Source of the DNA: Bradyrhizobiaceae bacterium
GTDB taxonomy: Bacteria > Pseudomonadota > Alphaproteobacteria > Rhizobiales > Xanthobacteraceae
Assembly: GCA_947481685.1 (NCBI GenBank)
Contig: CANKHA010000005.1
Location: 1-64,000 of the forward strand
Direction: 5' to 3'
Length of the DNA: 64,000 nucleotides
The translations under genes and the position numbers were made by a program. Below, piece by piece: positions 17,775-51,045 of this stretch. The notes beneath the pieces are model-generated. The model searched no databases. It was not told the DNA's origin and worked only from the letters and a program-made list of their open reading frames with translations. Position 1 is the first letter of the stretch; each line of letters opens with the position of its first letter.

Positions 17775-18839
17775 TTACTGCGCGCGCACCAGGCTGCGCG
17801 TGCGCTCCACGACGGGTTTTGGATATTGATAGAAGCGGCGGATGATGTCTTCGGCATCTTGCGCCGCGATTGGCTGTACCGGCAGACCTGATGCCTTGGC
17901 GTCGGCGAGAAATTCCGGATCCCGGACAAGCTTGTCGAAAGCAGCGCGAAGCGCCGATACGCGCTCGGGCGGAAGTTCAGGCGGGGCGATGAAGGGGCGG
18001 CCGAGCCAAAGCCGCGACAGTAGAAGTTCGATCACCTGCCGGTCTTGGTCTTTGGTGACATAGTCCAGCACTCCCGGAACGTCAGGCAGCGCCGGATCCT
18101 TCTGCAGGCTCATCTGCACCATGAGCTTCATCTTGCCCTTGGCAATCTGGTCTTCAACATACATACGGGCATTGGCCGAATAGCCCGTGACGAACAGGCC
18201 GTGCAATTCGCCACGCTCGATCGCGAGGAAAATTTCCGGCTGTGCCTTGTAGGTCGGGATAATCTTGATCTTCGTTCCGAGCAATTCATTGATCAGGCGC
18301 GCATAGGTCGCGGCATCGTTCTGGCTGCCGGTCGATCCGAATAACAATTCGGTCTTGCGGGCCTCCTCGATTGTTTGCGCGGGCGCCCGCGTGGAAACCA
18401 CACCCATGCCCGCTTCGCGCGCAAGGCTGCCAAGCCAGGTGAGTTTCAACGGATCGAAGCGCGCCTTGGAGTCTTCGCCATAGAGCAGGGGGGCGGTGGG
18501 GGTGGAGCGGTCGAGCAGCGCGAAGACGGTGCCGTCCTGCGGTGCAACGTTGTAAACGTAATTGGCTGCCGTCATCCCGCCGGCGCCGGGCATATTCTGC
18601 ACGACCATTGTGGGCTGGCCGGGAATGTATTTCCCGATATGCCGCGCGACCATCCGGGCATATCCGTCATAGCCCCCACCGGGTCCGGTTGGTGCGATGA
18701 TGGTTACGGTCTTGCCGCGCCAGAATTCGCTTTCATCCGCTTGCGCGGGAGCCGGAAGAAGCGACGCCACGAGCCAACCGGCTGCGACGATCCCCCACGC
18801 AAGAGCCGATGAAAACCGCAAACGACCACCCGTACGCAT
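17775..18839 (-). CDS. Tripartite tricarboxylate transporter-type (TctC/Bug) solute-binding protein
   Basis: A periplasmic binding protein of 354 residues with a long N-terminal signal (cleavage probably after PAPAQA). Bug-family features are FWRGKTVTIIAPTGPGGGYD at the start of the mature domain, PGQPTMVVQNMPGAGGMTAA and a late DPEFLADAKASGLPV. Such proteins bind carboxylated metabolites. No TctA/TctB membrane genes are nearby, so it is an orphan, as is common in Bradyrhizobiaceae and Burkholderiales. It is convergent with the broken gene at 16508 (16 bp between stops) and lies 82 bp downstream of erpA on the same strand. Confidence 0.88.
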   Translation of the reverse strand: MRTGGRLRFSSALAWGIVAAGWLVASLLPAPAQADESEFWRGKTVTIIAPTGPGGGYDGYARMVARHIGKYIPGQPTMVVQNMPGAGGMTAANYVYNVAPQDGTVFALLDRSTPTAPLLYGEDSKARFDPLKLTWLGSLAREAGMGVVSTRAPAQTIEEARKTELLFGSTGSQNDAATYARLINELLGTKIKIIPTYKAQPEIFLAIERGELHGLFVTGYSANARMYVEDQIAKGKMKLMVQMSLQKDPALPDVPGVLDYVTKDQDRQVIELLLSRLWLGRPFIAPPELPPERVSALRAAFDKLVRDPEFLADAKASGLPVQPIAAQDAEDIIRRFYQYPKPVVERTRSLVRAQ

Positions 18840-18921: not shown

Positions 18922-19251
18922 CTAGAGCGAGAAACTGGTCCCGCAACCGCAGGACGCGGTGACGTTCGGGTTGTTCACTTTAAACGCTGCGCCAATCAGG
19001 TCATCCACAAAATCGATCTGCGAGCCTGCAAGATAGCCAAGCGACACCGGATCGATCAGTACCGTTGCGGTGTCACGCGTGATCACGACATCGTCGCCAG
19101 CTTGCTCATGTTCGATATCGAACTTGTACTGGAATCCCGAACAGCCGCCGCCTTCCACGCTGACGCGCAGCTTGGCGCCGGGCGCTTCGCGGCCGAGGAT
19201 CTCGCCAATCTTTCGTGCCGCCTGTTCGGTGACGGTGACTGCCGTGGTCAT
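18922..19251 (-). CDS. erpA: Iron-sulfur cluster insertion protein ErpA (A-type carrier)
   Basis: A 109-residue A-type carrier that passes Fe-S clusters to apoproteins. All three cluster cysteines are present: one in EGGGCSGFQY (about residue 37) and two in ASCGCGTSF (about 101 and 103). The length is typical. In relatives erpA is usually adjacent to and divergent from dgt; here two cargo genes (19326-21604) lie between them, and erpA sits in a same-strand run OCD-like, ABC binding protein, erpA, TctC with gaps of 65, 74 and 82 bp. An AT-rich stretch (near 19270-19290) could still hold its own promoter. Confidence 0.94.
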   Translation of the reverse strand: MTTAVTVTEQAARKIGEILGREAPGAKLRVSVEGGGCSGFQYKFDIEHEQAGDDVVITRDTATVLIDPVSLGYLAGSQIDFVDDLIGAAFKVNNPNVTASCGCGTSFSL

Positions 19252-19325: not shown

Positions 19326-20432
19326 CTATTTCCCCGGCTTTAGCAGATCGCGAACTTTCTTCGCCACGTCCATGCGCACCCGCATCTGCCAGTCGATGTC
19401 GGTGTAGTCGGAATATTGCACGCCCGTCTTCGGGATGACGCGCGGATCGAGGAAAGATTCATCGACATCGGTGCGGAGCGTCGCGGCCTGGGCGTTCGCG
19501 GAGTAGAGTTCCAGCGCTTCTTTTCCCGCCATCCAGTTGACGAATACCTTGGCGGCATTGGGATGCGGCGCCTTGTTGGCGACGCTCAGAAGTGAAGGCG
19601 CGGGCGTGACACGGTTCTGCAGCCCCTCAAGATCGAACAGCTCAACCAGCTTGTAGCCTTCGTTTACCAGCGTGCGCATGTCGTCGATATGACAGGTCAG
19701 ACAGATCGGGGCGGTGCCGCGCGCCAGCCAGTCGCTTAGTAGGCGGCGGTCGCGCTGCACTACGGCTTCCTGGCCGAGATAGAGTTGCTTGGTGAATTCC
19801 GGACCCATCTGGGTATAGAAATGCGACGCGCTTCCGGCGCCGCCGCCGCCCGCGGCCACCGGGTCTTCAGTCGAGATTTTGCCTTTCCATTTCGGATTGA
19901 GCAGGTCCTTGACGTTGCGCATCTCCTCGGGCTTCACGTAGTCCTGATTGACGACCATGAAGCTGTCGACGCTGCGGAACATCAGCAGCAGATATTGTTT
20001 CTCTGGATCGGCGAAGGGGATGACGCCGCCTTTCCATTTTGCCGGGTCGGCGACTTCGGGAAGCACCAGCAACGGCTTCAGCGGGTCGATCATCTTCTCG
20101 GCGTAAAGCACCGAGATGCTGGTCCCGCCGTTGGACATGAAGACATCGGTCGAATAGATGCCGGCGGCGCGCTCGGTGCGCACTTTGCCGACCGTGGTGC
20201 TGGATTGGCCGGCGATCAGCTCGACCTTGATGCCATAGCGTTCGGTGAATTTCGGCAGGATTTCGTTGCGCATCGCGGGCGAAGGCTGGCCGAGCACCAC
20301 CACCGTGCCTTCTTTCTTCGCGGCGGCGAGTGTTGCTTCCCAGTCTTTCTTCCAGTCGGTTGTTTGCGCCTGCGCAAGAGACGCGGACGCAAACAACCAG
20401 ATCAATGCCACGGCTTTTGAGAGCCTTGTCAT
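19326..20432 (-). CDS. ABC transporter substrate-binding protein (iron/family-1 type), orphan
   Basis: A 368-residue periplasmic binding protein with a clear signal peptide (KAVALIWLFASASLAQAQ). The mature start (WEATLAAAKKEGTVVVLGQP) and the pattern FTERYGIKVELIAGQSS are typical of extracellular solute-binding proteins related to Fe(III) and putrescine/spermidine binders. A late NWMAGKEALELYSANAQ helix agrees. No ATPase or permease gene is present in the window. It lies 65 bp downstream of an ornithine-cyclodeaminase-like gene on the same strand, so the two are probably co-expressed. The ligand is unknown. Confidence 0.85.
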   Translation of the reverse strand: MTRLSKAVALIWLFASASLAQAQTTDWKKDWEATLAAAKKEGTVVVLGQPSPAMRNEILPKFTERYGIKVELIAGQSSTTVGKVRTERAAGIYSTDVFMSNGGTSISVLYAEKMIDPLKPLLVLPEVADPAKWKGGVIPFADPEKQYLLLMFRSVDSFMVVNQDYVKPEEMRNVKDLLNPKWKGKISTEDPVAAGGGGAGSASHFYTQMGPEFTKQLYLGQEAVVQRDRRLLSDWLARGTAPICLTCHIDDMRTLVNEGYKLVELFDLEGLQNRVTPAPSLLSVANKAPHPNAAKVFVNWMAGKEALELYSANAQAATLRTDVDESFLDPRVIPKTGVQYSDYTDIDWQMRVRMDVAKKVRDLLKPGK

Positions 20433-20497: not shown

Positions 20498-21604
20498 TCA
20501 GTTCCGGATGTCCTGCAGGAAGAGACTTGTCGGAATCTCGTAGCCGAGCCCGCACTTCTTTGCTTCCTCATAGACCACGCCGCCGACCGCATAGAATTGC
20601 GCGCCCTGCAGGTTACCGCGTTCGGAGTAGGTGATCTGGTCCGATGAGGTGCGGCCTTTTGCCTTCCCGCTGATGAGGTCGGCGAAGGTGACGCGTTTGT
20701 CGGGCAGCGCAACACCATGCACGCGGCCCTTGCCGCGGCCATCGCCGAACTTTTTCTGGTCGGGGCGAGCGACGTAAGCGACGTGCTCGGCGTCGGTTTG
20801 TAATTCCGGGTGACCTTGCGGAGCGGGGGTGTCGCCGAAGCGCAGATAAGCATCGACGCGGTCGAGCGCCTTTTTGTCCGGCTTGCCGCTGCCGCCGATC
20901 ACGACGATATGGGAGCCTTTTTCCAGCAGGCTGCCGTCCGTCACCGCCACCGCGGAATCCGTCAACGCGGCCACGATATGCGCGCCCTTGTAGACGTCCT
21001 CCGGCTTGTCGCAGGCCTTCACCTCGATGTTGTAGCGGTGGCGCATTTCCTCCGCGAACTTTTCGCGGTTGGCCTTGGTCGGGCTGAACACCTGAAGCTT
21101 CTTGATTTTGCGCACGGCGTTGAACGCCTGCATGTTGGTGCGCGCCATGCCGCCGGAGCCGAACATGCCGACCACCTCGGCGTCTTCGTTGGCCATATAT
21201 TTTACGCCGATGCCGCCATCGGCGCCGACGCGCATATGCTGCAGCACGCCATCGTTGATGAACGCCAGAGGTTCGCCGTTCTCGATGGAGGTCAGCAGAA
21301 TCATGCCGCAGAATGTGCCGGGCTGCATGCAGTATTTTTCCTGCGTCACGACACCGTTGTAGCTATCTTCCCAGATGATGTCGGACTTGAAGCGGATGGC
21401 GAAATAGCCGCCGGTCGAGCCGCCTTCCATCGTGCCAAATTGGTAGTTCTTTTTCGGATCGCTGGTGGGGATGCGGATATCGATGCGGGGGCGGCAGACA
21501 GCTTCGCCGATGGCCATGTTCTTGTAGGATTCCTCCAGCGCCGCGATGGTGGCTTCCATCGTCAGGACCTGTTCGACGTCATGATTGTTGATGATCAAAG
21601 TCAT
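20498..21604 (-). CDS. Ornithine cyclodeaminase / mu-crystallin family protein, copy 1
   Basis: A 368-residue member of the OCD/mu-crystallin family of NAD(P)-dependent enzymes (ornithine cyclodeaminase, alanine dehydrogenase, ketimine reductase). The Rossmann motif GMFGSGGMARTNMQAF is near residue 135, and the family segment GVLQHMRVGADGGIGVKY comes just before it. ATG 21604 starts MTLIINNHDVEQVL, aligning with the paralogue at 46617. Both are longer than classical OCD (about 330-350) and end FLQDIR plus one residue. The true substrate is unknown; pairing with solute-binding proteins at both loci suggests catabolism of an imported amino or imino acid (inference). Confidence 0.88.
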   Translation of the reverse strand: MTLIINNHDVEQVLTMEATIAALEESYKNMAIGEAVCRPRIDIRIPTSDPKKNYQFGTMEGGSTGGYFAIRFKSDIIWEDSYNGVVTQEKYCMQPGTFCGMILLTSIENGEPLAFINDGVLQHMRVGADGGIGVKYMANEDAEVVGMFGSGGMARTNMQAFNAVRKIKKLQVFSPTKANREKFAEEMRHRYNIEVKACDKPEDVYKGAHIVAALTDSAVAVTDGSLLEKGSHIVVIGGSGKPDKKALDRVDAYLRFGDTPAPQGHPELQTDAEHVAYVARPDQKKFGDGRGKGRVHGVALPDKRVTFADLISGKAKGRTSSDQITYSERGNLQGAQFYAVGGVVYEEAKKCGLGYEIPTSLFLQDIRN

Positions 21605-21729
21605 TGGCGCTTTTTCCTCACTCACGTTGGCGCGATATCGGGCGGCTAAAGGGACCGGCCTCATTGTTTATCAGGGCCCGGCGCGATAGTTAAGGCTGGC
21701 GGGAAGCCGCGAGAGGCGAGAGAATAATC

Positions 21730-41260: not shown

Positions 41261-42318
41261 AACGCGAAGCGATCACGCAAATTGCGTCGCTCAGCAACAA
41301 TGCGGGCGATCACCACCCGTTCGCTCTCGCTTGCGATCAGCGTGTCGATCAGTTCCACCTGGTTCATAGCGACCAGCGTCAGGATTTCCGTGCGCACGCT
41401 GCCATCGGCATTGCGCGGCAACGCGCCGCTCATCTGCAGATGCTCGGGGGCAGGAGGGCCGGCTTTCTCACCGAGGAATTCCCGAAGATCCTTTTCCGGC
41501 AGGATCGAATTCATTTCAACGAAGGCATAGAGCCCGGTGCCGGAGCGGCGGTCGGGGAAGGCGACGATGGCGACGTCGCGCACCGCGGGATGCTCGCGCA
41601 GCCGCGCGGCGATGACCGGTGCGTCATTTACGAGGCGCGGTCCGCCGCCTTCGCGGTCGGTGAAGTTGAAGATGCCGCGGGTGATGCCGCGATAGACCTT
41701 CTTGCCGGTAGCCATCCATATCCGGGTGAACCAGCTCTTGCGCGCCAGCACGCGCAATTCGGCGGGCGTCAGCGCTTCCGGCAGATAGCGGCGCTTGTGT
41801 TTCAACAAGTGTCGCAAATCCTCGTAGGCGAGGACGCGGAACAGGCGGCTGCGGCGGGAGAAGCAAAACGCGAGCTGGAAGTCCGTCAGGTAGCAGCGGC
41901 CATCGACGCCGCGCAGCCAGTTCTGTTCCTTGGCGAGATCGTTGTGGACGATGCCGGCGCGATGCAGCCGTCTCAACACGGCTTTGGCCGAGCGGAAATA
42001 TGTGAAGTCACCTTGCGGTCTGGCGATGTGCAGGGCGACGCCATCGATCCAGCCGCGCACCAGTTCCCGGCGGCCGCTGAACAAAAGCGCGGGCGCGATT
42101 TTCAACGGGTTGGCGCGCAGCAAGGCGCGGCTTTCGCGCGTAAACAAATGCCGCGCCAGCGGGCTCGACCACCAGGGCACTTCATCGGTCCGGCGCAGCA
42201 CGGCTTCAACCTCGCCTTGCGCCGTGTGGAAGTGGCCGCGCTCCACGGTGGAGAAGACATCGCGCTTGAGCACGACATTGCTGCGCCAGCGATCGGCGAT
42301 TTCGCTTGGCCGGCTCAT
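41257..42318 (-). CDS. Kinase-fold protein with C-terminal acyl-CoA-synthetase-like tail
   Basis: A 353-residue protein with two parts. Residues about 1-190 resemble a protein or lipid kinase: a catalytic-loop-like [14 protein letters not shown] (Asp and Asn in place) and a DFG-like YLTDFQLAF. No clear glycine-rich loop is seen; an early [14 protein letters not shown] may hold the ATP Lys. Residues about 260-335 resemble the C-terminal lid of AMP-forming acyl-CoA synthetases ([38 protein letters not shown], with the usual catalytic Lys near the end not obvious). The start ATG overlaps the trmFO stop (ATGA), so it is translated with trmFO. The role is unknown. Confidence 0.72.
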
Positions 42319-43751
42319 TCGGCGGCGGCCAGCCGGGCGCCACGGGCCCATTGATCGAGATCGGCAAGCGCGCGGACGCACAGCGCGCGTTTTTTCGCGA
42401 TGGTCTTTTCATTGCCGCGCAGACGTTTTCCGTCAGGACCGTTTTTCGGATTCTGCGCCAGCGGCGGAAAAAGCCCAAAATTGATATTCATCGGCTGGAA
42501 AGAGCGCGGCCCCGCATCGATGGTCTCGACATGGCCGCCGGTAATGTGTGCCAGCAGCGCGCCATGCGCTGTGGTTTGCGGCGGCGGCAGCATTTCTTCG
42601 CCAAGCTGCTGAGCAACGGCAAAGCGCGCCGACAGCAAGCCGATGGCGGCGGATTCCACATAGCCTTCGCAGCCGGTGATCTGGCCGGCGAAGCGCAGCC
42701 GCGGCATCGCTTTCAGCCGCAGCGTGTCGTCCAGCAGCTTCGGCGAATTAAGGAAGGTGTTGCGGTGCAGTCCACCCAGTCGCGCGAATTCGGCCTTTTC
42801 CAGTCCAGGGATGGTGCGGAAGACGCGGACCTGCTCGGCGTGCTTCAGCTTGGTCTGGAAGCCCACCATGTTGAACAAAGTGCCGAGCTTGTTGTCCTGC
42901 CGCAGCTGTACGATGGCATAAGCCTTGACCTGCGGATCGTGGGGGTTGGTCAACCCGACCGGCTTCATCGGGCCGTGCCGCAAGGTCTCCACCCCGCGCG
43001 CCGCCATGACTTCGATCGGCAGGCAGCCATCGAAATAGGGCGTTGAGGCTTCCCACTCCTTGAAGCTGGTTTTGTCGCCTGCAATCAGCGCTTCCACAAA
43101 AGCGGCGTACTGCTCGCGCGTCATCGGGCAATTGAGATAATCGGCGCCCGTGCCGCCCGGGCCAGCCTTGTCGTAGCGCGACTGGAACCAGGCAACCGAG
43201 AGATCGATGCTCTCGCGATGGACGATTGGCGCAATGGCGTCGAAGAAAGCCAGCGCATCCTCGCCGGTGACGCCGCGGATGCCGTCCGCCAGTGCCGCGG
43301 AGGTCAGGGGCCCGGTGGCGACGATCACATTGTCCCAATCGGCCGGCGGCAGGCCCGCGATTTCCTCACGCACGATCTCGATCAGCGGATGGGCTTCCAG
43401 TGCGGCCGTGACGACCGCAGCGAAGCCGTCGCGGTCCACCGCCAGCGCCCCACCGGCCGGAACCTGATTGGTGTCTGCGGCGCGCATGATGAGCGATCCG
43501 AGCTGGCGCATCTCCTCGTGCAGGAGGCCGATGGCAGACTGCTCGTGATCGTCTGACCGGAAGGAATTGGAGCACACCAGCTCCGCCAGGCTGTCGGTCT
43601 TGTGGGCGTCCGTGGTGCGGGTTGGGCGCATCTCATGCAACGCCACAGGCATGCCACGCTCCGCGACCTGCCAGGCCGCCTCGGCGCCCGCCAGGCCGCC
43701 GCCGACAATATGAATCACTGGGCTGGGGTTTCCTGCCAAATCGTTTGTCAT
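42315..43751 (-). CDS. trmFO: Methylenetetrahydrofolate-tRNA-(uracil-5-)-methyltransferase TrmFO
   Basis: Folate- and FAD-dependent enzyme forming m5U54 in the tRNA T loop. The FAD-binding [19 protein letters not shown] lies near the N-terminus, followed by the family segment [11 protein letters not shown] with the catalytic-region cysteine, and [19 protein letters not shown] near the C-terminus. The length of 478 residues is typical. ATG 43751 (MTNDLAG) is chosen; an in-frame start 18 bp upstream is possible. The stop overlaps the start of the kinase-like gene. Confidence 0.95.
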
Positions 43752-43811
43752 GGGGCATAGGTAGGTCATTGCGGGGCAGGGCCGCAATCGATCAATCCAC
43801 GCTTTTCGGGG

Positions 43812-44304: not shown

Positions 44305-44568
44305 CTAGGCCGCGTACGCTTCCTCGCCTGACGCGAGCGCCGCCTCGATCTTGCGGATCAGGGCCCTGGCCGATTCCGCGCTCAGTTCCACCGCCACCCG
44401 CTGGGTGCCGCCTTCGGCGTCGCTGACGAAGTCGATGTTCAGGGTGTGGTCGAGGGGGGCGTGGAAGGGATGATCGAAATAGACATTGGCGGTATCGATC
44501 CGCATCCACTCATTCGGCCCCTTGGCGCTGCCGACGATCTTCGTCTTCTCGGTGATGTAGGTGCACAT
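44305..44568 (-). CDS. DUF6295-family protein
   Basis: An 87-residue cytosolic protein starting MCTYITEKTKIVGSAKGPNE, with FDHPFHAPLDHTLNIDFV and ending in an Ala-rich helix. I recognise the pattern as DUF6295, function unknown. It lies 23 bp downstream of the dienelactone hydrolase gene and is probably co-transcribed. After the stop are GC-rich inverted repeats (44230-44300) that may end the transcript. Confidence 0.75.
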   Translation of the reverse strand: MCTYITEKTKIVGSAKGPNEWMRIDTANVYFDHPFHAPLDHTLNIDFVSDAEGGTQRVAVELSAESARALIRKIEAALASGEEAYAA

Positions 44569-44591
44569 GGTTTGTCTCCCGATCCCGGCTG

Positions 44592-45341
44592 CTACTTGGC
44601 GAGATATTTTTTGTAGAAGGCGAAGATCTTCTTCCAGGCATCTTCTGCCTGCTCCGGCCGGTAAGCCGATTTCGGCACGTTGAAGAAGCCGTGGCCCGCG
44701 CCGTCGTAGCGGTGGAATTCGTAGGTCTTGCCCGCCTTCTTGAGGATCTCTTCCGTCTTGTTGACGTGCTCGGGCGACGGGTTTTTGTCGTCGTTGCCGT
44801 AAATCCCGAGGACCGGCGCGGTGATCTTGTCGGTCAATTCGATCGGCGGGACCGGCCGTTTTGTCGGATCATTCTTGTTGTCGAAGAATTTGTTGCCGCC
44901 CCAGCAATCGACCACAGCATCGACATTCGAGAGCCGCGCCGCCGCAAGATAGACATGGCGTCCGCCGGAGCAGAAGCCGATGAGGCCGACTTTGCCGTTG
45001 GCTTCCGGCTGCGCGCGCAAGTAAGCCATCGCGCCCGCGATATCTTCGACAACCTGCGGATCGGGAACGCCGCCGTCGGCGCGTGCCTTGGCCGCAATAT
45101 CCTCGGGAGCACCAGTCCCTTCGCGATGATACAGGTGCGGCGCGATGGTTGCGAAGCCGTGCTGCGCGAGCTTGCGCGTGGCTTCCAGAACCCATTCATC
45201 CCAGCCGGGCGCATGATGGATCAGAACCACGCCGGGGAAGGGCCCCTTGCCCGAGGGCTTGGCGTAATAGGCTTCGATCATGTCGCCCTTGTCGCCCTTC
45301 ATCATCACGCATTCGCCGCTCAGGCCTGAATAGCTGCTCAT
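44592..45341 (-). CDS. Dienelactone hydrolase-family protein
   Basis: An alpha/beta hydrolase of 249 residues with the DLH pattern. The N-terminal oxyanion region is VVLIHHAPGWDEWVLEATRK, the nucleophile is Cys in IGFCSGGRHVYL (about residue 124), an acid-region GIYGNDDKN follows, and the catalytic His is in DGAGHGFFNVP. Such enzymes open lactones or hydrolyse small esters in aromatic and related catabolism. There is no signal peptide. It is in an apparent operon with the 2-hydroxyacid dehydrogenase (32-bp gap) and DUF6295. Confidence 0.9.
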   Translation of the reverse strand: MSSYSGLSGECVMMKGDKGDMIEAYYAKPSGKGPFPGVVLIHHAPGWDEWVLEATRKLAQHGFATIAPHLYHREGTGAPEDIAAKARADGGVPDPQVVEDIAGAMAYLRAQPEANGKVGLIGFCSGGRHVYLAAARLSNVDAVVDCWGGNKFFDNKNDPTKRPVPPIELTDKITAPVLGIYGNDDKNPSPEHVNKTEEILKKAGKTYEFHRYDGAGHGFFNVPKSAYRPEQAEDAWKKIFAFYKKYLAK

Positions 45342-45373
45342 TGTCGTTCCTCTGTTGTTTTGGATTTTGCTGA

Positions 45374-46441
45374 TTACTGCGTCACGCTGGCGCCGCCGAA
45401 GCGTTCTTTCCAGCGTGGAATGACGTCGCGATTATAAACATTATCCGGCACCTTGCCCGCCAGAGCAGACAACACCGAGCGCGTTGCCCAGGTGATGCCG
45501 GCCCGCAATTCACCGCCGTAGCTCTGCGCGGCCGAATGCGGGGAGAACAATACCTTGTCGCCGAGCGCGCGCAGCGGCGAATCCGCCGGGAGCGGTTCCT
45601 CCTCGAAGGCGTCGATACCGGCGGCTGACACGCGGCCCGCTGTGATGGCGCGGGCGAGGGCGGCTTCATCGATCACCTTGCCGCGCGCCGTATTCAGCAC
45701 CACCGCGCCGGGCTTGATCATGGCGAGTTCCTTGTCGCCCATCATGTAGCGGGTCTCTTTGGTGAGAACGACATGGAACGATACCACATCGGATTCCTTC
45801 AGCAGCGTTTCGTAATCGACCGATCTGGCATTGGCGAGAATGAAGTTGGTGGGCGGCAGATACGGATCGTAAGCCAGCACCCGGATGCGCCACGGCGCCA
45901 GCAACTGCGCAACGCGCTGGCCGATACGGCCCAACCCGACAATGCCGAGCGTGATGCCGGCATAGCCATCCGACAACCGGCTGCCGACAAAGGTGCCGCC
46001 ATGCTGCTCCTGCCGCCACTGTCCCGCGCGCACCGAAGCGTCGCGCTCGCGGATTTTTTTCAGGATGGTAAGCATCAGGGCAATGGTGGTTTCTGCGACC
46101 CCGAAGCAGTTGGACTCGGTTGGGGCGTGGCAGACCAGGATGCCGAGATCGGTTGCGGCATCGACGTCCACATCATCGACGCCGACGGTATATTTCGCCA
46201 CGACGCGCAGGCGCTGCGAGCCTTCCATGATGCGGCGGCTGACGGGCGTATGGCGGATCGACGTGCCCATCAGCGCTACGGTGTCGCGCGCCGCGGTGGC
46301 AAAGGCATCCTCGTAGGCGCCACGGGGCTTCTGCCAGTCGAGGCTGCCCTTGGCGATCTCGAAACCGGCGCCTTCAAGCTGGTCCAGAATGGACGGCGGC
46401 TCTTCGCGCGGCGCAAAGATCAGAATTTTCGGCTTGGACAT
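45374..46441 (-). CDS. D-2-hydroxyacid dehydrogenase (phosphoglycerate dehydrogenase-like)
   Basis: A 355-residue NAD-dependent oxidoreductase of the D-isomer 2-hydroxyacid dehydrogenase family. The Rossmann motif LGIVGLGRIGQRVAQLL is near residue 165. The catalytic Arg region is VLNTARGKVIDEAAL (about 255), Glu is in GIDAFEEEPLP, and His is in FSPHSAAQSYG. The substrate is not deducible. It is divergent from the OCD-like gene at 46617, with a 175-bp shared intergenic region, so the two arms may be co-regulated. Confidence 0.92.
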   Translation of the reverse strand: MSKPKILIFAPREEPPSILDQLEGAGFEIAKGSLDWQKPRGAYEDAFATAARDTVALMGTSIRHTPVSRRIMEGSQRLRVVAKYTVGVDDVDVDAATDLGILVCHAPTESNCFGVAETTIALMLTILKKIRERDASVRAGQWRQEQHGGTFVGSRLSDGYAGITLGIVGLGRIGQRVAQLLAPWRIRVLAYDPYLPPTNFILANARSVDYETLLKESDVVSFHVVLTKETRYMMGDKELAMIKPGAVVLNTARGKVIDEAALARAITAGRVSAAGIDAFEEEPLPADSPLRALGDKVLFSPHSAAQSYGGELRAGITWATRSVLSALAGKVPDNVYNRDVIPRWKERFGGASVTQ

Positions 46442-46616
46442 TTTCCCCCGCTTATTATTCGTTCTCAGGCTAGGTTACGATGACCGGAACGTCCTTGCCA
46501 ACCGCATGCCATTGACAGGCTGAGACAATGGCGTGACCTTCCAGCCCTCCCGGAGCGGCGCGGCCGGCGACAGGCACGGCGGGCTGAAATCACTAAAAAA
46601 GAACGAGTCACCACAC

Positions 46617-47747
46617 ATGCTGATTATCAATAACGACGACGTCGCCAAGCTTCTGACCATGGACGATTGCATCCGCGTGCAGGAGGAGGCCTTCAAGAAA
46701 ATCCCTACCGGCGGCGCCATCCATCGTCCCCGCATCGATATCTACATGCCTTGCGACGTTCCTGACGGTTACTACCGCTGGAGCACGATGGAAGGCGCGA
46801 ACGACGCCTATTGTGCCATCCGCATGAAGTCGGACATCATTACATGGCCCAAGGAAAAGGACGGCAGCTGGACCGAAGACAAGTGGTGCATGGAGCCCGG
46901 GACTTATTGCGGCGTCATCTACCTGCTCTCGACCCGCAATGCCGAGCCGCTCGCCTTTATCAACGATGGCCATCTCCAGCATATGCGCGTCGGGGGCGGC
47001 GCGGGCATCGGAGTGAAGTGGCTCAGCCGAGAGGATTCCCACACCGTCTGCATGCTCGGGTCCGGTGGCATGGCGCGAACCTTTCTGGATGCCTTCACCT
47101 GCGTGCGCGATATCAAGCTCTGCAAGGTCTACAGCCCGAACGCTGGACGCCGCGAGGCTTTCGCCGAGGAAATGTCGAAGAAGCTGAAGATCGAAGTGCG
47201 CGCCGTCGACAGCGCGCGCGAAGCCGTGCGCGGCGCCGACATTCTTTCGACCTGCACCGATTCCATGCAGCCGGTTTATGACGCCGACTGGGTCGAGAAG
47301 GGTATGCACGTCACCAATCTTGGCCGTCGCGAGATGCCGGAGGATATTGAGTTCGATCTGGTCGTGCGCCAGGGCACCGCGGGCCTGCAGATGAAACAGA
47401 CCGAACGCTTCCAGGCCGAACGCGGGTTGTCGCCTGCGGCCTATCTCGGCGGATCTGTTGAGGAGATGAAGCGCATTCCGGAAAAGAATACCAAGCCCGG
47501 TTTCGGTGGCGACACGCCAGAATTCAATGACCGCGGCAAGGGCGGCGACAAGCCGGACTTCGCCGATCTCGTGACGGGCAAATGCGCGGGCCGGACTTCA
47601 CGGGATCAGATCACGTTCTATCGTAACGTCGGCAATCAGGGACTTCAGTTCTCGTCGGTCGGCGGATGGATTTATGAAATGGCGAAGAAGAACAAGCTGG
47701 GCCGGGAAATTCCGACCGAATGGTTCTTGCAGGATATCCGCGATTAA
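46617..47747 (+). CDS. Ornithine cyclodeaminase / mu-crystallin family protein, copy 2
   Basis: A 376-residue OCD/mu-crystallin-fold protein. It has the Rossmann segment CMLGSGGMARTFLDAFTC (about residue 145), HLQHMRVGGGAGIGVKW before it, and the tail EIPTEWFLQDIRD. It is clearly a paralogue of the gene at 20498: both share LIINN-DV, LTM, PRIDI, MEPG/MQPG-T-CG and a late GRTS-DQIT. ATG 46617 is chosen to match the paralogue; the longer reading to 46533 lacks support. TctC copy 2 starts 42 bp downstream. Confidence 0.88.
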   Translation: MLIINNDDVAKLLTMDDCIRVQEEAFKKIPTGGAIHRPRIDIYMPCDVPDGYYRWSTMEGANDAYCAIRMKSDIITWPKEKDGSWTEDKWCMEPGTYCGVIYLLSTRNAEPLAFINDGHLQHMRVGGGAGIGVKWLSREDSHTVCMLGSGGMARTFLDAFTCVRDIKLCKVYSPNAGRREAFAEEMSKKLKIEVRAVDSAREAVRGADILSTCTDSMQPVYDADWVEKGMHVTNLGRREMPEDIEFDLVVRQGTAGLQMKQTERFQAERGLSPAAYLGGSVEEMKRIPEKNTKPGFGGDTPEFNDRGKGGDKPDFADLVTGKCAGRTSRDQITFYRNVGNQGLQFSSVGGWIYEMAKKNKLGREIPTEWFLQDIRD

Positions 47748-47789
47748 AATCGGCGCATCCGTAATCAAAAACATCAGGGGAGGTTTATC

Positions 47790-48839
47790 ATGAGGAATTA
47801 TCGGTTGCTTGCGACAGCTGTCGTGGCCTGCCTGGCGTTTTGCGCCAGCAGTCTCATGACACAGGTCGCGAACGCGCAGTCCGTTGATCTTGCCGGGCGC
47901 CAGATCAGGCTTCTGATCGGGTTCGGTCCCGGCGGTAACAACGATGTGTGGGCGCGCGTCATCTCCAAGCATATGCCGAAATTCCTTCCGGGCAATCCGG
48001 TCATGGTGCCGCAGAATTATCCCGGCGCGGGTGGGCTGAAGTTGATCAATGAACTTTACAACACGATGCCGAAAGACGGCACGGTCATCGGTCTCGTCAG
48101 CCGCGGGCTTGCTTTCGAACCGTTGCTCGGCGGCGCCAATACCCGTTTCGATGCGATGAAAATCAACTTTATCGGCAGTCCCGACCGGGACATCACGGTT
48201 TGCGCGGCGCGCAAAGATGCGCAGGTTCAAACCATGCAGGACCTGTTCTCCAAAACGCTTGTGATGGGCGCGAGCGGATCGGGCGCCGACACGGTCGTGT
48301 ATCCGCAATTTCTTTCCGAACTGCTGGGGATGAAGTTCAAGATTATTCAGGGCTATCCGGGATCGAAGGAAATCTCCATCGCGATGGAGCGCAACGAGGT
48401 CGAGGGAATCTGCGTCGCCTATGAAACGGTAATCCGTCAGCCGCTCGCGCGCGAAGGGAAGGTCAATATCCTGTTCCAGGCGGCGCTTCAGTCCGATCCT
48501 CGGTTGAAGGGCATTCCGATCGGAACCGACCTTGCAAAGTCGGACCAGGACCGCGCCGTCCTCAAGCTCTTCTTCGCGCGCGTCGCTATGGGGCGTCCTT
48601 TGGTTCTGCCGCCGGATGTCGATCCAGCGCTCGTTGCGGCGTTCCGCAGCGCGTTTGCGCAAACCATGAAGGATCCGGAATTCCTGGCCGAGGCGAAGCA
48701 ACTCGACCTGCGGATCGATCCGATCTCCGGCGAGGAGCTGACGGATGTGGTCCGCCATGCCTATAGCACCCCCAAGGACATCGTCGCCAAGGCAAGTGAA
48801 ATTCTGGGCCATATGACGGCCGAACCGGAAAAAAAATAG
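47790..48839 (+). CDS. Tripartite tricarboxylate transporter-type (TctC/Bug) solute-binding protein, copy 2
   Basis: A periplasmic binding protein of 349 residues with a signal peptide (VVACLAFCASSLMTQVANA). The Bug-family mature start is VDLAGRQIRLLIGFGPGGNN, with PGNPVMVPQNYPGAGGLKLI and DPEFLAEAKQLDLRIDPISG. It is related to the protein at 17775 and likewise lacks membrane components. It is operonic with OCD copy 2 and is followed by a strong hairpin terminator. Confidence 0.9.
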   Translation: MRNYRLLATAVVACLAFCASSLMTQVANAQSVDLAGRQIRLLIGFGPGGNNDVWARVISKHMPKFLPGNPVMVPQNYPGAGGLKLINELYNTMPKDGTVIGLVSRGLAFEPLLGGANTRFDAMKINFIGSPDRDITVCAARKDAQVQTMQDLFSKTLVMGASGSGADTVVYPQFLSELLGMKFKIIQGYPGSKEISIAMERNEVEGICVAYETVIRQPLAREGKVNILFQAALQSDPRLKGIPIGTDLAKSDQDRAVLKLFFARVAMGRPLVLPPDVDPALVAAFRSAFAQTMKDPEFLAEAKQLDLRIDPISGEELTDVVRHAYSTPKDIVAKASEILGHMTAEPEKK

Positions 48840-48850
48840 CATAAGCAAAA

Positions 48851-48884
48851 GGCGCGGCAGGGACTGCCGCGCCTGATCATTTTC
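48851..48884 (+). terminator. Bidirectional hairpin terminator
   Basis: GGCGCGGCAG-GGA-CTGCCGCGCC, a perfect 10-bp stem, followed by TGATCATTTT on the plus strand and by TTTTGC on the minus strand. It lies between the convergent TctC copy 2 and DUF1428 genes and may serve both. Confidence 0.8.
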
Positions 48885-48902: not shown

Positions 48903-49262
48903 CTAGGCGTCGACCATGGTCTTGAAGCCGCCGTAGATCATGCGCTTGCCATCGAACGGCATCTTTTTCGGGTCCATAATGTCCTTGAGGCGCTTGTCCT
49001 TCATCACCTTGGCAAGGATACGGTCGCGCGCACCGCGCGACTTGTAAGTGATCCATGAGAATACCACGACTTCGCCGGGCTTGAGCTTGACGCTCTGGGG
49101 GAAGGACGTGTGTTTGCCTTTCTTGACGTCGTCGGCCACGCATTCCACCACTTCAATCGCGCCGTGATCGCGCCATACCTTGGCAGCCTTCAGCGCCATG
49201 GCGCGATAGGTCTTGAGGTTTCGGCGGGGGACCGCGAGCACAAATCCATCGACGTAATACAT
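48903..49262 (-). CDS. DUF1428-family protein (YbaA-like)
   Basis: A 119-residue protein starting MYYVDGFVLAVPRRNLKTYR, with SFPQSVKLKPGEVVVFSWI and the family ending DPKKMPFDGKRMIYGGFK, matching DUF1428 (E. coli YbaA). The fold is a dimeric alpha/beta barrel, function unknown. It is the last gene of the ArsR-led operon, starting 1 bp after the stop of the SRPBCC gene upstream. Confidence 0.9.
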   Translation of the reverse strand: MYYVDGFVLAVPRRNLKTYRAMALKAAKVWRDHGAIEVVECVADDVKKGKHTSFPQSVKLKPGEVVVFSWITYKSRGARDRILAKVMKDKRLKDIMDPKKMPFDGKRMIYGGFKTMVDA

Positions 49263-49263
49263 T

Positions 49264-49737
49264 CTATTTCTCCTCCAAATGCTCGGCGAGACGCTCGAGT
49301 GTCTGTTTGGCGCCTTCGAGCGCACCATATTTGGTGACGACCTCGTTGCGTTCTTCGGCGGTGGCGAACAGGCTGCGCATGGTGAGCAGCGTTTTGTCAC
49401 CCTGGACTTCGAAAGTCACCATGACGTGGAATCGCACGTCCTCGTGTTCTTCCTCGCCGGCATGGCGATAAACCAGCCGTTCCGGTTTCACAACTTCGCT
49501 GAAGATGATTTTGTTCTTGTAGTCGTGCCCGTCCGGGCCATGCATCGTGAACCGCCAGACGCCGCCCGGCGTCATCGACATTTCGTGGGTAGTGGTGCTG
49601 AAGCCGCGTGGGCCCCACCAATGTGTAATTCGTTTCGGATCGGTCCAGGCCGCGAACACGAGTTCGCGCGGAGCATCGAACAACCGGCTGGTGACGATCT
49701 CGCGGTCTGCAATATTGTTTTCGACAGTGACGCTCAT
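49264..49737 (-). CDS. SRPBCC (AHSA1-like) domain protein, second in operon
   Basis: A 157-residue START/Bet v 1-fold protein of the AHSA1 group. It has the typical REIVTSRLFDAPRELVFAAW and THWWGPRGFSTT, and ends with TLERLAEHLEEK. Such domains bind hydrophobic ligands or act as small-molecule enzymes. The ATG at 49737 overlaps the stop of the VOC gene (ATGA), so translation is coupled. Confidence 0.92.
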   Translation of the reverse strand: MSVTVENNIADREIVTSRLFDAPRELVFAAWTDPKRITHWWGPRGFSTTTHEMSMTPGGVWRFTMHGPDGHDYKNKIIFSEVVKPERLVYRHAGEEEHEDVRFHVMVTFEVQGDKTLLTMRSLFATAEERNEVVTKYGALEGAKQTLERLAEHLEEK

Positions 49738-50144
49738 TGCGGCTTCTCGCAGTTGATCATCCACGGCGTGCCGAAACGATCTGTCACCATCCCGTAGCGA
49801 ACGGCCCAGAAGGTCTCCTGGATATCCATCTTCACCTGACCGCCTTCGGCGAAAGCCTTGAAGATGCGCTCCGCTTCGGCAGGCGTATCGACATTCACTG
49901 TAACCGCCATACCTTTTGTCGCTTCAAAATGCTGGGGAGGGGCGTCGGATGCCATCAGCACGTTGTCTCCAAATACCAGGCGCGCATGGATGATCTTGCC
50001 GCGCCACTCCGGCTCGGTGTGTTCGGCGGCCGGCGTTTCGGCAAAGGTCATCATGCCGACGATCTTTCCGCCCAGAACTTTCTCGTAAAACTTGAAGGCT
50101 TCGGCGCAGTTCCCGTTAAATAGGAGGTAGGGGTTTATTTTCAT
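49734..50144 (-). CDS. VOC-family (PhnB/glyoxalase-like) protein
   Basis: A 136-residue vicinal-oxygen-chelate fold protein of the PhnB group: KINPYLLFNGNCAEAFKFYE at the start, then GDNVLMASDAPP and WAVRYGMVTDRFGTPWMIN at the end. Related proteins are glyoxalase/bleomycin-resistance-like with unknown substrates. It is the third gene of the ArsR operon, between two SRPBCC genes. Confidence 0.92.
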   Translation of the reverse strand: MKINPYLLFNGNCAEAFKFYEKVLGGKIVGMMTFAETPAAEHTEPEWRGKIIHARLVFGDNVLMASDAPPQHFEATKGMAVTVNVDTPAEAERIFKAFAEGGQVKMDIQETFWAVRYGMVTDRFGTPWMINCEKPQ

Positions 50145-50204
50145 GACGATCTCCTCTGCTGGAGTTGAGTGAAAGGTATCCCGTTCTCGTACAGGCCGAT
50201 GCGC

Positions 50205-50711
50205 TTATGCAGCTTTGGCGAGATAAGCCGTCAGACTATCCAGCGTTCCGGTCCAGCCCTGGTTCATGCTGCCATGACCGGCGGCGAAGGTCGCGCGTTC
50301 TTCTTCAGTTGCGTTCAACGGTGACCATTCAACGGTGAACTTGGTTTTGTTGCCTTGTTCCTCGAAGTCAAAAATTGACAGCATTTCCAGAGGCCAGGTC
50401 GGGCCCATGGGGTGGCGCGTGACACCGCCTGCCTCATCGAAAAATGAATTGACGAACACGATGCGCGATTGCGGGGTGATCTCGCGGTAAACCATCTTGC
50501 CCCACATCACGATGCCATCGGGCGTGCGCATGGCGTAGAGGTAACGGCCGCTGGGACGCAGGTCCATGTCGGACTTGATGATAGTCACGCCCTTCGGGCC
50601 CCACCATTGCTTCATGTGATCGGGATCGGTGAAGGCCTTCCACACCAGATCGCGCGGCGCGTCGAACACGCGTGAAATAACGAAAACTTGGGGATCATTT
50701 TTTTCGGCCAC
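50205..50711 (-). CDS. SRPBCC (AHSA1-like) domain protein, first in operon
   Basis: A 168-residue AHSA1-type START-fold protein, VFVISRVFDAPRDLVWKAF and HMKQWWGPKGVTIIKS, related to the one at 49264. The GTG at 50711 (VAEKNDPQ) is chosen: it overlaps the ArsR gene by 17 bp and begins just before the domain. The longer open frame lies inside arsR and is not supported. Confidence 0.9.
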   Translation of the reverse strand: MAEKNDPQVFVISRVFDAPRDLVWKAFTDPDHMKQWWGPKGVTIIKSDMDLRPSGRYLYAMRTPDGIVMWGKMVYREITPQSRIVFVNSFFDEAGGVTRHPMGPTWPLEMLSIFDFEEQGNKTKFTVEWSPLNATEEERATFAAGHGSMNQGWTGTLDSLTAYLAKAA

Positions 50712-51045
50712 GCTTCTTCTCCTTAGCTTGAATGGTTTTGAGGTAATCGTCGAGACGGTCGAGGCTTTGTTCCCAGAAGCGGCGGTATTCCTCGATCCAT
50801 CTGGAAACATCTTTCAGCGGGCCGGCTTCGAGCCGGGCGGGGCGCCACTGCGCATCGCGGCTGCGCGCGATCAGCCCTGCATTCTCGAGAACCTTGAGGT
50901 GCTTTGACACCGCAGGTCCGCTGATGTCGAAAGGCTTTGCCAGTTCGCTCACCGACGTTTCGCCCAGCGACAGCCGCGCAAGAATCGCGCGCCGGGTCGG
51001 ATCGGCGAGGGCGGCAAAGGTGGCGCTGAGATGGTCGGTCGCCAT
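50695..51045 (-). CDS. ArsR-family transcriptional regulator
   Basis: A 116-residue winged-helix repressor. It starts LSATFAALADPTRRAILARL and has the recognition helix region ISGPAVSKHLKVLENAGLIA. The metal-binding cysteines of ArsR/SmtB are absent (no ELCVCDL motif), so this is the metal-independent subtype often paired with SRPBCC genes. The C-terminal tail is Lys/Arg-rich (AKEKKRGRKK). It heads a five-gene operon and probably represses it through the repeats at 51058-51084. Confidence 0.92.
   Translation of the reverse strand: MATDHLSATFAALADPTRRAILARLSLGETSVSELAKPFDISGPAVSKHLKVLENAGLIARSRDAQWRPARLEAGPLKDVSRWIEEYRRFWEQSLDRLDDYLKTIQAKEKKRGRKK

Follow-up and report, generated by a model that had tools for sequence, protein, structure and literature searches.

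A recurrent pair of OCD-family enzyme and TctC-type receptor genes within a divergent five-gene cluster of a Bradyrhizobiaceae bacterium

Do neighbouring genes in divergent arrangement form one pathway, or do they belong to units of separate origin? This question is raised by five genes in the first 64,000 nucleotides of contig CANKHA010000005.1 (GenBank assembly GCA_947481685.1) of a Bradyrhizobiaceae bacterium, the whole of which stretch is referred to here as the window. One arm of the cluster encodes a D-2-hydroxyacid dehydrogenase (HADH), a dienelactone-hydrolase-family protein (DLH) and a DUF6295 protein; the other encodes an OCD/mu-crystallin-family enzyme (OCD) and a TctC-type periplasmic receptor of the TTT family (Table 1). 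A first-pass annotation had located these genes and named their families, with which both the open reading frames and Pfam agree, and had read them as a single route from uptake to metabolism with a shared promoter region. Our analysis instead makes it rather probable that the cluster consists of three separate modules, OCD-TctC, DLH-DUF6295 and HADH, and the first two of these appear to be genuine small units.

We scanned one genome per species and obtained 30 loci with OCD at 70-83% identity. Where OCD was at least 76% identical, a TctC gene lay directly 3' and on the same strand in 15 of 17 loci (L037, L038, L040-L045, L047-L051, L062 and L063), the TctC of L037 being only 26% alike; among the 13 loci with OCD at 70-74%, TctC was directly 3' in two (L061 and L064). 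Neighbourhood genes were called by a simple script that is wrong in places (L038 and L051), and the pair counts rest also on tblastn; Pfam was run on part of the neighbour genes, the others being labelled through a clustered or BLAST-matched relative. In a tree of 39 TctC rows, taken from the fetched loci rather than from all TctC of those genomes, 14 OCD-paired TctC including that of the window form one clade (100/99) with no unpaired row inside it; the L037 and L064 rows, also paired, are placed outside it. This tree omits L027 and L028, which duplicate L063 and L039, as well as rows outside 280-430 amino acids (aa), L049 and L061 among them; L051 was re-cut by coordinates. The tree needs three label changes, by which the same OCD may have gained a TTT receptor as often as three times independently, or a single time followed by losses. 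Among the genomes listed, the best non-self match to the window TctC is OCD-paired, in G008 at 53%; the others listed stand at 37-47%, their neighbours unchecked, and at most 13 candidates were scored per genome listed. OCD itself is thinly distributed: at E 1e-75, a search of the order found it in 4 of 397 genomes and one of the class in 12 of 385, and at E 1e-30 a search of relatives found it in 8 of 150 genomes, the source genome being counted in each; three other genomes of these 150 (G008, G032 and G051) carry an orthologue at 77-81%.

Within the source genome, all five OCD-family genes found have a TctC match within 3.0 kb, the gaps to the matched TctC domain being 208, 773, 1744, 1845 and 3003 bp. 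As background, 15.6% of positions have a TctC match within 3.5 kb, or 16.3% when six further TctC genes are included; this estimate takes no account of contig ends and, being based on PF03401 matches, misses some TctC genes, so that the true value may be higher. The five genes are paralogues, and we treat their proximity to TctC as supporting, not decisive.

Conservation of the cluster had been set beforehand as a test of the single-route reading, and it was not observed: orthologues of HADH, DLH or DUF6295 lay beside OCD in none of the 30 loci, 25 of which cover at least 4 kb upstream and five less. Under looser labelling, DLH-family genes at 35-38% occur within 2-7 kb of OCD in L137 and L138, and these were dismissed as orthologues because they are too distant. 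Those relatives that own all modules (G008, G032 and G051) have them on different contigs, and G008 alone has two on one contig, with HADH and DUF6295 approximately 51 kb apart.

The genes of the left arm keep company of their own. DUF6295 was found in 15 of the 150 genomes and DLH, at E 1e-60, in the identical 15, the source genome included. They are adjacent (less than 250 bp) in 13 of these 15, the adjacency in G002 being judged on the last 34 DLH residues at a contig end; they lie 816 bp apart in G017 and on separate contigs in G051. A search of the phylum found DUF6295 over the cut-off in two of 398 genomes, the source genome and G544, and DLH adjoins it in G544 too. DLH and DUF6295 are likely to be a functional pair. 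HADH orthologues (61-75%) occur in 8 of the 150 genomes, again counting the source. In five of the seven relatives (L090-L093 and L095) trmFO lies 0.6-2 kb downstream on the same strand, and no trmFO was found within the 13-14 kb stretches around the HADH genes of G033 and G069 (61-62%; L094 and L096). In four of the seven, HADH has a TctC-like gene as its direct upstream neighbour (Pfam on L093). The DLH-DUF6295 pair is found about 2.6-6 kb from trmFO in L099, L100 and L102, through short matches at the end of the stretch in the latter two. As DLH-DUF6295 and HADH thus both occur near trmFO in different lineages, the trmFO side appears to be a home of these left-arm modules, with OCD-TctC as a likely newcomer to this neighbourhood. 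We also note a UbiD-family decarboxylase gene upstream of HADH in L094 (5132-7654; Pfam) and in L096 (by clustering).

Several observations weigh against a division into three modules with OCD-TctC as a lasting pair. Two of the 17 close loci (L039 and L046) and 11 of the 13 with OCD at 70-74% have no TctC 3' of OCD, and in G032, with OCD at 77%, there is none on its 9.8-kb contig. TctC genes are very common, so that a single adjacency means little, and the loci are also related; the three label changes of the tree may be a single gain plus two losses. Furthermore, all three OCD-bearing relatives also carry HADH, DLH and DUF6295, a co-occurrence that kinship can explain and that still leaves room for a link, and a similar combination of OCD with a hydroxyacid dehydrogenase is seen elsewhere: an OCD of the block A type (Table 1) in L031 and in L033 directly adjoins another D-2-hydroxyacid dehydrogenase, 30-31% identical to the HADH of the cluster. 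The last two points would also speak for one five-gene pathway, in which TctC uptake is followed by OCD, HADH and the lactone hydrolase in sequence from a single divergent promoter region, as would the tight spacing of the left arm (23 and 32 bp) and the short divergent gap. This gap has the 175-bp size first assigned to it, but its role as a shared promoter region did not hold up: it contains no promoter-like match, only weak, short and imperfect inverted repeats, and the upstream DNA of 10 aligned OCD loci, the window included, is unlike, with no conserved block beyond the start codon. (A GTG at 46533 is present upstream of OCD, yet aligned relatives agree from the ATG at 46617.) A divergent promoter as a conserved shared element was rejected on these grounds. 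With the arms together in none of the 30 loci, the modules separated in each of the three relatives possessing them, and DLH and DUF6295 present without an OCD orthologue in 11 relatives, we consider the five-gene pathway very improbable and reject the five genes as a single unit on conservation. What stands of the proposed uptake-to-metabolism route is the conserved OCD-TctC pair, for which an uptake (or sensing) link to the enzyme is reasonable; the joining of two arms in one pathway falls. The further claim that no described pathway has this set may be true, but it is a consequence of these genes not forming a set.

Table 1. Positions in the window of the cluster, its surroundings and its block A counterparts
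Feature	Position	Strand	Basis and remarks
DUF6295 protein, 87 aa	44305-44568	-	PF19812, E 6.9e-39, 132 bits (cut-off 25); module 2, 3' partner of DLH
Dienelactone-hydrolase-family protein (DLH), 249 aa	44592-45341	-	PF01738, E 2.2e-44, 152 bits (cut-off 21); module 2
D-2-hydroxyacid dehydrogenase (HADH), 355 aa	45374-46441	-	PF02826 (2-Hacid_dh_C), E 2e-51, 174 bits; PF00389, 58 bits; module 3
Intergenic gap between divergent arms	46442-46616		175 bp
OCD/mu-crystallin-family enzyme (OCD), 376 aa	46617-47747	+	PF02423, E 1.8e-34, 119.6 bits (cut-off 24); module 1
TctC-type (TTT family) periplasmic receptor	47790-48839	+	PF03401, E 3e-8, 33.9 bits (cut-off 27; low score); module 1
Terminator-like hairpin	48850-48874	both	strong, 11-pair stem, 3' of TctC
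trmFO-like gene, anchor of the locus	42315-43787	-	74-79% relatives near HADH orthologues in five stretches; presumably trmFO, from the look of its translation
Block A OCD paralogue	20498-21664	-	PF02423, E 1.5e-36; 46% to cluster OCD
Block A solute-binding protein (SBP_bac_1)	19326-20432	-	PF01547, E 4.3e-14; adjoins the OCD paralogue on its 3' side
Fe-S-biosynthesis gene	18922-19251		PF01521; between block A SBP_bac_1 and TctC genes
Block A TctC	17775-18839	-	PF03401, E 4.1e-18; 36% to cluster TctC

The first-pass annotation was also right that OCD and TctC have counterparts in block A of the same window, although these are differently arranged. Block A is not a second copy of the OCD-TctC pair, because a solute-binding-protein gene adjoins its OCD and an Fe-S-biosynthesis gene intervenes before its TctC. 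None of the five cluster genes reached an NCBIfam cut-off; HADH scored 230.6 of the 454 bits required for phosphoglycerate dehydrogenase (TIGR01327), and the nearest solved relative of DLH by sequence is 3f67. Plasmid carriage was considered and rejected, PLSDB having no match for the locus DNA, the OCD protein (E 1e-40) or DUF6295. To the right of the cluster (48903-51045) is an ordinary-looking set unrelated to these findings, with DUF1428 and AHSA1-type proteins; a PhnB-like protein and a regulator of ArsR type were identified there by eye.

The nature of the paired proteins bears on what such a unit might do. The AlphaFold2 model of OCD (pLDDT 83.7) has 6t3e as its best solved fold (TM-score 0.71 by query and 0.82 by target), followed by archaeal alanine dehydrogenase, SbnB, ornithine cyclodeaminase and mu-crystallin, and its first 46 PDB matches are all of OCD/mu-crystallin type by title, at E 8e-13 or better. 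Across 36 family rows R37, R69 and R124 do not vary, and R39 and K71 hardly do; these may be the Arg/Lys residues that serve carboxylate binding and catalysis in the family. Shared Pfam family and fold would suit a true cyclodeaminase or an amino-acid dehydrogenase of known kind. We think such an identity improbable, as OCD is only 14-25% identical to solved members and the 14 NCBIfam models listed for it all score far below cut-off, the best at 135 against 417 bits. Naming OCD by NCBIfam was dropped for the same reason, and the label 'Tyramine oxidase subunit B', suggested by a weak NCBIfam match, is a phrase that our literature search did not find.

The TctC model (pLDDT 86.3), which has an N-terminal helix at residues 8-21, finds its best solved fold in the TctC 4x9t and also matches terephthalate, oxoadipate and malate receptors. 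The source genome has 82 TctC matches in 3.26 Mb and 13 TctA matches, none of the latter on the contig of the window. In the first look at relatives, G008 and G077 gave 354 and 421 TctC candidates, and together with the source genome this looks like another case of the known expansion of TTT receptors. Rosa et al. (2018, PMC5994714) describe very large orphan TTT receptor sets in some Alpha- and Betaproteobacteria, with expansion in Rhodoplanes and Bordetella; for Rhodoplanes they place only nine of 434 TTT receptors in standard TTT operons, and they name sensing as a possible role. A receptor that senses rather than transports, presenting its ligand to a membrane receptor with the OCD enzyme as the metabolic answer, would fit both this precedent and the absence of TctA from the contig. 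We nevertheless regard it as unlikely, since the same OCD is linked to TctC, TctA and TctB in L061 and L064, and the subset of neighbour genes to which Pfam was applied showed no sensor kinase.

These two loci lead to the wider partners of OCD. In L064 (4156-11310) a run of six genes on one strand reads OCD-TctC-TctA-TctB-cupin-EutA-like, its TctC identified by tblastn, and L061 (8001-17066) has a similar set plus a thiamine pyrophosphate (TPP) enzyme gene on the other strand. A cupin-EutA-like pair is also found near OCD-family genes in L144, L145 (directly divergent) and L147 (4.6 kb away), and a EutA-like gene alone in L055, L065 and L066. The EutA-like proteins of L064 and L065 have best scores of 284.6 and 321 bits, far short of the curated EutA cut-off of 598. 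In the source genome, one contig (C8; L194, 6427-9227) has a cupin-EutA-like pair at 52% and 64% to that of L064, and another (C26; L193, 6253-12536) a more distant EutA-like gene, two weak cupin matches and TctA; neither contig carries any of the five OCD genes. At other loci OCD-family genes lie by NMT1-type receptors, YeiH-type exporters, TPP enzymes, and MmgE/PrpD and UbiD genes. The neighbours of OCD-family genes look like those of carboxylate catabolism, without fixing a substrate. Tentatively, OCD-TctC might be the minimal version of an as yet undescribed route for a nitrogen-containing carboxylate taken up by the cell, with the six-gene run of L064 as its fullest version in our data; we hold this to be possible but doubtful. 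Were it true, the EutA-like role would be new, because these proteins score well below the curated cut-offs. As a separate observation, in L040, L043-L045, L048 and L050 an OCD (79-80%)-TctC pair is followed by a YeiH-type gene (PF03601; Pfam on L045, the rest by clustering), and in five of these six a second OCD paralogue (32-34%) follows as well. Flagellar and NADH-dehydrogenase-type neighbours in the group with OCD at 70-74%, and cytochrome-oxidase-assembly neighbours in L028/L039 and L063, were taken as chance context.

We return to the reading of three modules, which would have been inherited independently and assembled beside trmFO. OCD-TctC would be a two-gene operon, presumably co-transcribed, in which TctC, as an orphan TTT receptor, would bind a small carboxylate in the periplasm. 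Uptake could proceed through one of the unlinked TctA permeases of the genome, and the OCD enzyme in the cytosol may be an oxidoreductase of the imine/amino-acid type that uses NAD(P)H to reduce a C=N bond adjacent to a carboxylate, or may catalyse the reverse dehydrogenation. The pair would join a carboxylate receptor to an enzyme that acts on a carbon-nitrogen bond adjoining a carboxylate. DLH-DUF6295 would be a separate two-gene hydrolase unit and HADH a dehydrogenase native to the trmFO neighbourhood, and the three modules would not act in sequence.

To our knowledge, few orphan TTT receptors have a known ligand. Where a receptor keeps to one enzyme family it offers a direct handle, as the substrate of the enzyme should be the ligand of the receptor or derive from it, and in this sense OCD-TctC is a modest, testable lead. 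Co-occurrence with DLH similarly gives DUF6295, a domain of unknown function, a likely first partner; our literature search found this domain in one paper, in a table row. The same search found no paper on OCD-TctC pairing; of two papers that contain both cyclodeaminase and tripartite tricarboxylate (PMC2864759 and PMC12263691), the two passages of the first lie in unrelated sections.

A large stock of orphan TctC in related bacteria has already been described, and the source genome, with many TctC and few TctA (82 against 13 matches), is like the expansion in Rhodoplanes and Bordetella, although pairing with OCD-family enzymes is unmentioned in the available portions of that description (PMC5994714). 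The window TctC resembles the solved TTT receptors of the TctC/Bug type (4x9t, BugD 2f5x and TphC 7ndr) in family and fold, but it is 14-20% identical to them, has a low Pfam score and has no TctA on its contig. OCD is of the same family as the iminosuccinate reductase BhcD and EutC of ectoine utilisation, but in NCBIfam it reaches only 53.5 of the 500 bits and 102.3 of the 471.65 bits needed, respectively. Compared with the delta1-pyrroline-2-carboxylate reductase of Thermococcus litoralis (6t3e, PF02423), OCD is only 23-25% identical and has an extra stretch at approximately residues 250-315, partly of low confidence in the model; this reductase is nonetheless the best match to OCD in the PDB by sequence, and the two are alike in fold.

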